This document shows, one piece after another, positions 45,914 to 49,762 of a stretch of DNA of 64,000 nucleotides; within the stretch, counting starts at the first letter, position 1; each line of letters opens with the position of its first letter. The DNA is taken from contig NZ_AP022612.1 of the NCBI RefSeq assembly GCF_010729895.1, positions 2,480,001-2,544,000 of the forward strand. The letters are read 5' to 3'. A model generated the notes under the pieces. That model was not told the origin of the DNA. It did no database searches and worked only from the letters and a program-made list of their open reading frames with translations. Source of the DNA: Mycolicibacterium confluentis. Lineage in GTDB: Bacteria > Actinomycetota > Actinomycetes > Mycobacteriales > Mycobacteriaceae. A program made the position numbers and the translations under genes.

Positions 45914-45931
45914 TCTGGACACATGTCCAGA
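45914..45931. promoter_or_regulatory. palindromic operator upstream of manT
   Basis: TCTGGACA-CA-TGTCCAGA is a perfect 8-bp inverted repeat with a 2-base centre, ending 22 bases before the manT start codon. Its core GGACACATGTCC is the exact reverse complement of the core GGACATGTGTCC at 49750-49761 in the meT1/tetR region. This makes it a strong candidate operator for the TetR protein at 49756. Confidence 0.72.
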
Positions 45932-45953
45932 ATTAACGGTGGGGTGGCCTGAG

Positions 45954-47192
45954 ATGCGGATCGCATTGTTGTCGTACCGCAGCAAGACCCACTGTGGCGG
46001 GCAGGGTGTCTATGTTCGGCACCTGTCGCGCGGGCTGGTGGAACTCGGGCACCACGTCGAGGTTTTCTCGGGCCCGCCCTATCCCGAAGGGCTCGATCCT
46101 CGCGTGAAGCTCGTCGAGGTGCCCAGCCTCGACCTCTACCGCGAACCGGATCCGTTCCGGGTCCCCCGGCCCAGTGAGATCAAGACCGGAATCGACCTGC
46201 TCGAACTTCTGACCATGTGGTCGGCTGGCTTCCCCGAGCCACGGACCTTTGGGTTGCGGGTGGAGCGACTGCTCGCAGAGCGCCGCGACGAGTTCGACGT
46301 CGTCCACGACAACCAGAGCCTGGGAACGGGTCTGCTCAGGATCGCTGAGTCCGGCATGCCGGTGGTCGCCACCGTGCATCATCCGATCACCCGGGACCGC
46401 GTGTTGGATCTGGCGGCGGCCAAGTGGTGGCGCAAGCCCCTGGTGCACCGGTGGTACGGCTTTGCACAGATGCAGAAGCGCGTCGCGCGGCAGATCCCGG
46501 AACTGCTGACGGTGTCGAGCACGTCGGCCGCCGACATCGCGGAGGACTTCGGCGTCAGTGCCGACCAGTTGCATGTGGTGCCCCTCGGCGTCGACACCGA
46601 GGTGTTCAAGCCGACGCTGGAGCCCCGGGTGCCGGGCCGCATCATCGCGATCGCCAGCGCCGACGTGCCGCTCAAGGGCGTGTCGAACCTGCTGCACGCC
46701 GTCGCCAAGCTGCGCACCGAACGCGACGTCGAACTGCAGTTGGTGGCGCGGTTGGAGAGCAACGGCCCGACGCTGCGGCGGATCGCCGAACTGGGCATCT
46801 CCGACATCGTGCACATCTCCAGCGGTCTGTCCGACGACGACCTCGGTGCCCTGCTGGCTTCGGCCGAAATCGCCTGCATCCCTTCGCTGTACGAGGGCTT
46901 CTCGTTGCCTGCGGTGGAGGCGATGGCCAGTGGTACACCCATCGTCGCCAGCCGCGCCGGCGCACTCCCCGAGGTGCTGGGCAGTGAGGGTGCGTGCGCC
47001 GAACTGGTCCCGCCGGGTGATGTCGAGGCTTTGACCGCGACCCTGGGAGACCTTCTGGATTCACCCGAACGGCGGTACCGGATCGGTATCGCCGGCCGCC
47101 AGCGTGCCGTCGACGTCTACAGCTGGGAGTCGGTGGCCGCTCAGACCGTAGGTATCTATCAACGCGCAATGGACCGGAGTGCAGCATGCTGA
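45954..47192 (+). CDS. manT: GT4 glycosyltransferase, probable alpha-1,4-mannosyltransferase of methylmannose polysaccharide synthesis
   Basis: A 412-residue GT-B glycosyltransferase of family GT4. The N-terminal acceptor domain has GGQGVYVRHLSRGLVELGHHVEVFSG. The donor domain has VPLGVDTEVFKP, and the E-x7-E segment IPSLYEGFSLPAVEAMASGTPIVAS (about residues 305-330). Together with meT3 and mmpH downstream and meT1 nearby, it matches the four-gene MMP cluster characterised in Mycolicibacterium hassiacum, in which ManT elongates the 3-O-methylmannose chain from GDP-mannose. Operon position: first gene, 7-base overlap with meT3, palindromic operator upstream. Confidence 0.85.
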   Translation: MRIALLSYRSKTHCGGQGVYVRHLSRGLVELGHHVEVFSGPPYPEGLDPRVKLVEVPSLDLYREPDPFRVPRPSEIKTGIDLLELLTMWSAGFPEPRTFGLRVERLLAERRDEFDVVHDNQSLGTGLLRIAESGMPVVATVHHPITRDRVLDLAAAKWWRKPLVHRWYGFAQMQKRVARQIPELLTVSSTSAADIAEDFGVSADQLHVVPLGVDTEVFKPTLEPRVPGRIIAIASADVPLKGVSNLLHAVAKLRTERDVELQLVARLESNGPTLRRIAELGISDIVHISSGLSDDDLGALLASAEIACIPSLYEGFSLPAVEAMASGTPIVASRAGALPEVLGSEGACAELVPPGDVEALTATLGDLLDSPERRYRIGIAGRQRAVDVYSWESVAAQTVGIYQRAMDRSAAC

Positions 47193-47917
47193 CCGTGGAT
47201 TTCGACCGTCTCGGAGTCGGGCCGGGCACCAAGGTCATCGATGTGGGTGCGGGCGCGGGCCGGCACAGCTTCGAGGCGTACCGCCGCGGCGCCGACGTGA
47301 TCGCATTCGACCAGGACGTGGCCGAACTCGACAATGTCGCAACGATGTTCGAGGCGATGGCGGAGGCCGGTGAGGCGCCCGAGTCCGCCCGCGCGCAGGC
47401 CGTCGTGGGCAACGCCCTGGAACTGCCCTACGAGGACGGCACATTCGACGTCGTGATCGCCTCCGAGATCCTCGAGCACGTGCCCGAGGACGACGCCGCG
47501 ATCGCCGAGTTGGTCCGAGTGCTCAAGGATGGCGGCAAGCTCGCCGTGACCGTGCCGCGCTGGCTGCCCGAACGTATCTGCTGGGCGCTTTCGGACGAAT
47601 ACCACGCCAACGAGGGTGGCCACGTGCGCATCTACAAGGCCAGCGAACTGCGCCGCAAGATCGCCTCTCGCGGAATGAAGTTCACCCACACCCACCATGC
47701 CCACAGCCTGCATTCGCCGTTCTGGTGGCTGAAATGCGCTGTCGGCGTGGAGCAGAGCGATCATCCCGCGGTGACGACCTACCACCGAATGCTGGTCTGG
47801 GACATGATGCAGCGCCCGCTGCTGACTCGGGTCGCAGAGTCTGCGCTCAACCCCGTCATCGGCAAGAGCGTCGCCCTCTACTTCGACAAGCCGGCGGTGA
47901 ATGTTGCCCTCGTCTGA
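47186..47917 (+). CDS. meT3: class I SAM methyltransferase, probable 3-O-methyltransferase of MMP synthesis
   Basis: A 243-residue Rossmann-fold methyltransferase. Motif I is KVIDVGAGAGRHSFEA (about residues 16-31), the acidic end of strand 2 is FDQD, motif IV is FDVVIASEILEHVPED and post-motif GGKLAVTVPRWLPE follows. In the MMP cluster this gene provides the mannose 3-O-methylation that alternates with ManT elongation. The last residues overlap the mmpH start by 17 bases. Function is assigned from context plus fold; sequence alone shows only a class I methyltransferase. Confidence 0.83.
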   Translation: MLTVDFDRLGVGPGTKVIDVGAGAGRHSFEAYRRGADVIAFDQDVAELDNVATMFEAMAEAGEAPESARAQAVVGNALELPYEDGTFDVVIASEILEHVPEDDAAIAELVRVLKDGGKLAVTVPRWLPERICWALSDEYHANEGGHVRIYKASELRRKIASRGMKFTHTHHAHSLHSPFWWLKCAVGVEQSDHPAVTTYHRMLVWDMMQRPLLTRVAESALNPVIGKSVALYFDKPAVNVALV

Positions 47918-48974: not shown

Positions 48975-48987
48975 TCGGACCCTTGGG

Positions 48988-49671
48988 TCAGTCGACCGGC
49001 TGACCCGGTTCCCCGGCGGTGCGCTCCAGCACCCGCAATGTGCCCGTCGCCGAAACCTCCTGGAACTGACCGCTTTCCAGGGCACGGCAGTAGATCTGAT
49101 AGGGCGCCTGGCCGCCGTCGGCCGGATTCGGGAACACGTCGTGGATCACCAGTGCGCCGCCACGCTGCACCCACTGGGCCCAGCCCTCGAAGTCGCGATG
49201 AGCCGCGGCCTCGGTGTGCCCACCGTCGATGAACAGGAACTCCAGCGGGGTACGCCAGTGCTTGGCCACCACCGGCGACTTCCCCACCACGGCAACGACA
49301 TTGTCCGGCAGGCTGGCCGCGTCCAGGTTGTGCCGGAAGGTCGGCAGGGTGTCGAACAACCCGGTGGCCGGATCCACCATCGAGGTGTCGTGGTACTCCC
49401 AGCCCACCTGGTGCTCCTCCGAACCGTGGTGATGGTCGACGGTGTAGAGCACGCTGTTGGTCTCGAGCGCTGCCGCGCCCAGCAGCATGGTGGATTTGCC
49501 GCAGTAGGTGCCGATCTCGACGCCGGCCCCGCCCGCCAGATGGCCCCGCGCCGCCTCATACAGCGCACGTCCCTCGTCCTCCGGCATGAACCCGGTTACG
49601 CGCTCGGCCAGTGCGAAGAGGCGCTGTACGGTCTCCGGGATCCCTGCGGCGGCAACGTCGGTATCGGTCAT
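48988..49671 (-). CDS. meT1: SAM-dependent methyltransferase, probable 1-O-methyltransferase of MMP synthesis
   Basis: A 227-residue class I methyltransferase of the cephalosporin-hydroxylase/methyltransf_24 type. SAM-binding [19 protein letters not shown] (about residues 50-68), acidic TVDHHHG with three histidines, [26 protein letters not shown] with metal/catalytic Asp-His, and [11 protein letters not shown]. In the known MMP pathway MeT1 caps the reducing end of a short 3-O-methylated mannoside by 1-O-methylation, the first committed step. It is transcribed toward mmpH and divergent from the TetR gene, and the shared palindrome lies between those two starts. Confidence 0.85.
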
Positions 49672-49748
49672 GCACGCAACCTACACCGGCTTGCCGGCCC
49701 GCCAACCAGGGCATATCCTTGCCCACCCCATTGCGCTGTAGTAGCGTC

Positions 49749-49762
49749 CGGACATGTGTCCG
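49749..49762. promoter_or_regulatory. palindromic operator in the meT1/tetR divergent region
   Basis: CGGACA-TG-TGTCCG is a perfect 6-bp inverted repeat with a 2-base centre. Its 12-base core is identical, on the other strand, to the core of the palindrome before manT. It overlaps the proposed GTG start of the TetR gene at 49756 and stands about 78 bases from the meT1 start, so binding would block tetR directly and probably the meT1 promoter too. Confidence 0.7.

Follow-up and report, generated by a model that had tools for sequence, protein, structure and literature searches.

Conserved putative operators at the manT and tetR starts of a mycobacterial methylmannose polysaccharide cluster, with a KstR-like TetR-family protein as their likely reader

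The 64,000-nucleotide stretch of Mycolicibacterium confluentis DNA analyzed here (the window) contains a methylmannose polysaccharide (MMP) cluster in which two related palindromes, lying within positions 45914 to 49764, mark the predicted transcription starts of manT and of a TetR-family gene, tetR, whose product is termed TetR-A. The sequence evidence indicated that this conserved pair of dyads probably represents real operators with a likely reader encoded next door. A prior sequence-only reading of the window had assigned both dyads to one TetR repressor controlling both halves of the MMP pathway, a claim that is in need of revision to a common operator with a second, autoregulatory site. 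The reading that we favor, at a probability of about 60%, is that TetR-A acts on manT and on its own start and that the operator type is common to TetR-A and a paralogue, TetR-B.

In the proposed mechanism, TetR-A would function as a KstR-like repressor whose dimers occupy GGACANNTGTCC dyads at two transcription start sites, namely that of tetR itself (autoregulation) and that of the manT-pmeT3-mmpH operon. Once in place, TetR-A would prevent promoter opening or clearance by RNA polymerase, and release would require a ligand, most likely of the acyl-CoA or sterol-CoA type. TetR-B, a protein of the Rv0767c type encoded between cyp123/cyp51 and aldA, would probably control manT in mycobacteria without TetR-A and may compete with TetR-A for the manT site in the genome containing the window. 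The elements concerned are as follows.

45886 to 45914, plus strand: predicted manT-operon promoter; -35 TTGCAC (45886-45891), 17-base spacer, -10 TAAGGT (45909-45914)
45914 to 45931, no strand: predicted operator 1, a perfect 18-bp dyad, TCTGGACACATGTCCAGA, spanning the predicted manT transcription start
49719 to 49747, plus strand: predicted tetR promoter; -35 TTGCCC (49719-49724), 17-base spacer, -10 TAGCGT (49742-49747)
49747 to 49764, no strand: predicted operator 2, TCCGGACATGTGTCCGAA, spanning the predicted tetR transcription start and start codon
49756 to 50328, plus strand: tetR (TetR-A), KstR-like TetR-family regulator (TetR_N match and structure model), predicted to be leaderless with a GTG start in the operator center

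Position, symmetry and conservation of the dyads

The 12-base core GGACACATGTCC was confirmed on the manT side (45917-45928), and GGACATGTGTCC, its exact reverse complement, on the tetR side (49750-49761), as the sequence-only reading had reported. The manT-side dyad was perfect over 18 bases (TCTGGACA-CA-TGTCCAGA, 45914-45931); the tetR-side dyad (TCCGGACA-TG-TGTCCGAA, 49747-49764) was perfect over 14 bases and matched in seven of eight pairs over 18. The assignment of the second dyad to the meT1/tetR intergenic region was incomplete, as this dyad overlaps the conserved GTG start codon of tetR at 49756.

Two GGACANNTGTCC sites were present in the window compared to 0.10 expected by first-order Markov resampling, and one of the 300 resampled windows reached two or more. 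Matches to the core with up to two mismatches were not enriched in the window (6 seen versus 8.74 expected). Genome-wide, GGACANNTGTCC occurred at 6 sites compared to ~9.5 expected from composition (scaled from the window) and 2 for a reversed control pattern, while the exact 12-mer, in either orientation, was detected four times versus ~1.5 expected. A core frequent across the genome had been named as a point that would tell against the proposal; the core was rare at these 6 sites, though not rarer than composition predicts. The number of sites is weak evidence because GGACANNTGTCC is no commoner genome-wide than its composition predicts, and the core count was dropped as evidence by itself, there being no genome-wide over-representation and only a chance level of matches in the window with two mismatches. 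The strong evidence is the placement and conservation of the dyads. The six genomic sites formed three pairs, and in each pair one member lay where a TetR gene begins. These genes encode TetR-A (paired with the manT site, at a distance of 3.8 kb), its nearest paralogue TetR-B and a more distant third TetR.

Conservation was examined in a sample of 98 Mycobacterium genomes, that of the window included, with manT called as present at an E value of ≤1e-180. manT was detected in 74 genomes, and all 74 had a GGACANNTGTCC-type dyad upstream of this gene. The strict pattern TCYRGACACRTGTCCAGR yielded 50 sites in 49 genomes, every one of which contained manT; all 50 sites were 22 to 101 bp upstream of manT and on the manT strand. 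A reversed control of TCYRGACACRTGTCCAGR gave zero sites in the 98 genomes, and the 24 manT-less genomes of this sample all lacked the strict 18-base form. The remaining 25 manT genomes had close variants, RGACANNTGTCY. TetR-A was not found in 21 of these; the other four comprised G149, G150 and G210, which have TetR-A together with the RGACANNTGTCY variant at manT, and G124, in which the variant was ~200 bp upstream of manT. The dyad was kept beside both manT and tetR in relatives, which was one of the checks that the sequence-only reading had proposed.

Both dyads had a common register to a predicted promoter, with the final T of a conserved -10 hexamer forming base 1 of the 18-bp dyad. In manT loci aligned on the dyad, TTGC was invariant and was followed, after a 17-base spacer, by a hexamer that was mostly TATAGT (TAAGGT in the window); mycobacterial tetR loci had TTGC, 17 bases and TAGYRT in the same register. 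A TTG -35 and a TANNNT -10 were present in 42/42 dyad-bearing manT loci (the window and 41 others), and both boxes were detected in 19 of the 21 manT loci without TetR-A and in 67 of 81 tetR loci, compared to 3 of 16000 random positions. A -10-like hexamer was in register in 70 of the 81 tetR loci. The assignment of these predicted promoter boxes rests on their conservation.

The tetR start codon was in the dyad center and in frame in all 81 loci (67 GTG and 14 ATG), being formed by the second base of the center and the following TG; the N-terminal length of the protein varied. As a 5'-terminal ATG or GTG on the RNA suffices for translation in mycobacteria (PMC4633059), this position suggests that tetR is probably leaderless, with its start codon inside its own operator. 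The same start-codon-in-operator design was observed for TetR-B and the third TetR. Occupation of the transcription start site is, from this geometry, the likely mechanism of repression.

Two further features were noted around the manT dyad. In the promoter spacer (45896-45908), relatives have near-invariant TAG and CAA/GAA blocks from which the window departs, and the conserved blocks suggest a second protein site. The manT leader also contains a short open reading frame (ORF):

45923 to 45952, plus strand: possible leaderless short upstream ORF (MSRINGGVA), starting in the dyad center and with a stop that ends one base before manT; speculative

This ORF opened with an ATG or GTG in the dyad center, and in 18 of the 42 loci, with leaders of varied length, its stop ended 1 to 2 bases ahead of manT. 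Its frame relative to manT was mixed (20, 14 and 8 of the 42 in the three frames). It is possible that this ORF is leaderless and coupled to manT.

Candidate readers of the manT dyad

TetR-A matched Pfam TetR_N (PF00440) with an E value of 6.1e-13 and 48.8 bits (cutoff, 24) and had the all-helical TetR fold with a ligand-binding domain; the structure model had a pLDDT of 89.1, and the nearest solved fold was that of KstR. No solved structure of TetR-A itself was among the matches listed by Foldseek and VIA-align. The conserved palindrome at the predicted tetR start is placed as a TetR-family operator on its own promoter would be. TetR-A was present in 54 of the 98 genomes, 53 of which had manT; the 54th (G200) had pmeT3, mmpH and meT1 beside tetR on a contig that ends before manT. 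TetR-A was not found in 21 of the 74 manT genomes, 20 of which were at least 97% complete, and the manT dyad was kept in all 21.

The distribution of TetR-A and the organization of the meT1 side bear on whether TetR-A alone is a dedicated repressor of both cluster halves, meT1 included. A leaderless-type meT1 start, defined as TANNNT followed 5 to 9 bases later by an in-frame ATG or GTG, was present in 46 of 59 loci and lacking in 13; in the window, meT1 has its own predicted leaderless promoter with a -10 of TAGGTT at 49683-49678. Among the 45 loci in which the distance was measured, the dyad ended 43 to 45 bases upstream of the meT1 start in 21 and 73 to 75 bases upstream in 12, and in the window it ends 75 bases from the predicted start. 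The meT1 TANNNT box was also present in 15/15 TetR-A-less loci checked, and no dyad other than that of manT was detected in the 21 TetR-A-less stretches, 19 of which extend to meT1. With the dyad mostly 43 to 45 or 73 to 75 bases from the predicted meT1 starts, direct repression of meT1 would be uncertain, and in the window the 75-base distance argues against the dyad as a direct meT1 operator. By position, the second dyad is a putative tetR autoregulatory site; direct control of meT1 by this dyad is geometrically doubtful in the window, and meT1 would be at most an indirect or weak target. The proposed control of both halves therefore found partial support, as the dyads cover the predicted manT and tetR starts and lie apart from the predicted meT1 start.

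Sole control by TetR-A is accordingly unlikely. The adjacency of tetR, its co-occurrence with manT, and the matched dyads at both cluster ends would all be explained, and G122, a genome that encodes TetR-A but not TetR-B, retains the dyad at manT. This explanation does not extend to the persistence of the manT dyad in every TetR-A-less manT genome or to the separate meT1 box, and the proposal of one TetR for both sites was supported in part, by the conservation, rarity and repressor-site geometry of the dyads and by the association of TetR-A with manT.

A possible second reader is TetR-B (249021-249536), the only protein in the genome of the window that matched TetR-A over most of its length. 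TetR-B is flanked by a P450, a short-chain dehydrogenase and a CYP51 on one side and by an aldehyde dehydrogenase (aldA) on the other. The CYP51 matched Rv0764c with an E value of 1.9e-247, and the gene order is that listed for Rv0764c to Rv0768 in PMC10470581. TetR-B carries two GGACACATGTCC dyads, one of which is at its own start, and shares with TetR-A the recognition segment ATAYTYFSSK, the operator core and a start codon in its own operator. An operator exclusive to one TetR, as the sequence-only reading implied, is not supported, given this common core and recognition segment and the manT dyads of the 21 genomes in which TetR-A was not found. An operator that either paralogue can hold would be the simplest account of these sequences.

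These findings also raised the converse explanation, that TetR-A controls itself only and that the manT dyad belongs to TetR-B, MMP synthesis being part of an Rv0767c-type regulon. Retention of the manT dyad in the 21 genomes lacking a detectable TetR-A is as this explanation predicts, the inner T...A flanks of many manT dyads match the TetR-B site, and in G069 the only three RGACANNTGTCY sites of the genome are that of manT and the two of TetR-B. Nevertheless, in G122, where TetR-B is missing, the manT dyad is retained along with the same promoter boxes (the tetR dyad of this genome contains a single mismatch), and TetR-A tracks manT while TetR-B relatives also occur in many manT-less genomes. 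We consider control of manT by TetR-B only to be rather improbable. A third explanation, that the manT dyad is an mRNA hairpin, a terminator or a fixed promoter element and not a protein site, is hardly credible: a terminator scan flagged the dyad on the minus strand as resembling a terminator, but no T-run follows on the plus strand, the neighboring aminotransferase gene and manT are both on the plus strand with the dyad at the predicted transcription start, and tetR genes and TetR-B carry this dyad as well.

Several observations weigh against control of manT by TetR-A through an operator common to TetR-B. The genomes are related, so that the counts are nonindependent and the Fisher P value overstates the co-occurrence of TetR-A and manT. 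One of the 21 TetR-A-less genomes (G142) was 80% complete, with a contig that stops before the tetR position, and the cyp51/aldA setting of TetR-B was confirmed in 6 of the 21. TetR-A sites were mostly C-RGACA..TGTCY-G, while manT sites were mostly T-GGACA..TGTCC-A or C-AGACA..TGTCC-A, and the T..A-flanked manT form resembles the TetR-B site. The common core alone is no proof of a common reader because GGACA/TGTCC is also used by unrelated TetRs, namely EilR (core GGACACGTGTCC; PMC6127294) and the third TetR of this genome. Nine Nocardia/Aldersonia loci with an MMP cluster and TetR-A had no manT dyad at ≤1 mismatch. One or both promoter boxes were absent in 14 of 81 tetR loci, and a promoter scan for the Escherichia coli-type consensus detected none at its threshold, the manT site included.

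A wider interpretation is put forward tentatively, at somewhat less than even odds. One manT operator may be read by two KstR-like paralogues, TetR-A and an Rv0767c-type protein, tying MMP synthesis to sterol, fatty-acyl or aldehyde metabolism; loss of TetR-A in one mycobacterial group would have left the distant paralogue as the sole occupant of this site, so that the regulator would have been exchanged while the promoter was conserved. A conserved operator in the manT promoter would offer a way to learn directly when and why MMP is produced by mycobacteria, and the KstR-like fold, together with an operator common to the cyp51/aldA regulator, points to a lipid-derived signal.

The MMP cluster and related loci in other genera

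The genes of the cluster are as follows.

45954 to 47192, plus strand: manT (PDB 7qsg, E 6.5e-211)
47186 to 47917, plus strand: pmeT3, putative MMP 3-O-methyltransferase (Pfam Methyltransf_11; cluster position)
47901 to 48974, plus strand: mmpH, MMP endomannosidase (PDB 7qsj, MmpH; E 1.7e-181)
48988 to 49671, minus strand: meT1, MMP 1-O-methyltransferase (PDB 6g7d, E 9.4e-105)

Structure 7QSG is that of ManT from Mycolicibacterium hassiacum, and ManT, MmpH and MeT1 were found to be encoded together on the basis of the 7qsg, 7qsj and 6g7d matches. The 6g7d entry is named only "methyltransferase domain protein". We take the 48988-49671 product to be MeT1 from its position in the cluster. In TetR-A-less genomes (L225, L226 and others), meT1 faces a different gene, the product of which, by eye in four stretches, resembles a cutinase-like secreted protein. 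Downstream of tetR, 50980-51330 encodes a DoxX-domain protein ending in near-identical repeats (AELAAVAAERGAPLLEAARDRS). The published MMP biosynthetic cluster (ManT, pMeT3, MmpH and MeT1) consists of the same four genes as in the window (PMC9883506). The main text of that paper contains no occurrence of regulator, transcription, operon or promoter, and 12 of its 14 "tetr" strings, those inspected, belong to words such as tetramannoside. Searches of open-licence papers yielded no described MMP regulator, in agreement with the absence claimed by the sequence-only reading.

In a broader family sample of 121 genomes, the strict 18-mer was present in 24 genomes outside Mycobacterium, 21 of which had a manT relative. 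Judged from coordinates, the 18-mer was ~6 to 47 kb from this relative in 20 of the 21 and on another contig in one; the two adjoined in none. In other genera of the family (G010, G017, G044, G068, G107 and others), the 18-mer often shared a contig with the manT relative at a distance of 6 to 47 kb, and the two may be chromosomal neighbors there. Nocardia and Aldersonia loci (L013, L014, L026, L031, L036, L041 and others) have a full manT-pmeT3-mmpH-meT1-tetR cluster with the tetR dyad present and the manT dyad absent. A contig labeled as an Acidobacteria metagenome-assembled genome (L009) carries a mycobacterial-looking MMP cluster and is probably misbinned. The third, distant TetR (L088:9523-9567; G000:C1:2577522-2577566) is divergent from a short-chain dehydrogenase gene and has two GGACANNTGTCC dyads 33 bp apart, with an ATG in the center of one.

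A quick tree separated nine TetR-B rows from TetR-A by a branch with an SH-aLRT value of 100 (midpoint root only). TetR-A was not identified as the Rv0767c orthologue, the TetR-B clade being separate and the cyp51/aldA locus of this genome holding the paralogue. Among TetR-A-like loci away from MMP genes, 20 of 23 had an aldA, cyp123 or CYP51 relative (stretches of ≤14.6 kb), and in Rhodococcus a TetR-A-like protein is encoded directly between aldA/cyp123/CYP51-type genes. Because TetR-A-like proteins occur at cyp51/aldA-type loci, a regulator of the TetR-A/B type seems to have served either the MMP or the cyp51/aldA locus. Rhodococcus and Speluncibacter loci (L034, L037, L043, L054, L056 and L076) have a TetR-A-like protein beside cyp123 and CYP51 relatives and no MMP genes, with aldA in four of the six.

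Comparison with known regulators

KstR (Rv3574) is a cholesterol-CoA-responsive repressor to which TetR-A is 19% identical, and TetR-A fell below the cutoff of the NCBIfam KstR equivalog (32.1 bits compared to 280). The KstR operator differs in sequence from the TetR-A-type dyad. The KstR-like fold of the structure model suggests an acyl-CoA or sterol-CoA signal for TetR-A.

The Rv0767c-type regulator TetR-B has ~42% identity to TetR-A. A 2015 study predicted a motif for Rv0767c (PMC4482099), and a 14-operon regulon, mostly induced by phytosterol, was proposed for the orthologue in Mycobacterium sp. VKM Ac-1817D (PMC6593523). The MMP operon was considered as a possible member of the 14 "motif X" operons of the latter study, the main text of which does not contain the string "mannos". 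Chromatin immunoprecipitation sequencing sites of Rv0767c were enriched in GAC and GTC (PMC10312376), which fits GGACA/TGTCC.

A literature text search for the 12-mers listed three papers on other subjects and one on EilR and its operator eilO (Jungle Express), the consensus of which contains GGACACGTGTCC (PMC6127294). This core was also present in several of the relatives examined here. EilR is an enterobacterial drug-efflux repressor, and its likeness to TetR-A is limited to the helix-turn-helix region, where structure 5VL9 matched the TetR-A profile with an E value of 2.5e-6. The EilR system shows that GGACACGTGTCC can serve as a binding site for a TetR repressor and that repression is stronger when the operator lies at the start site (PMC6127294).

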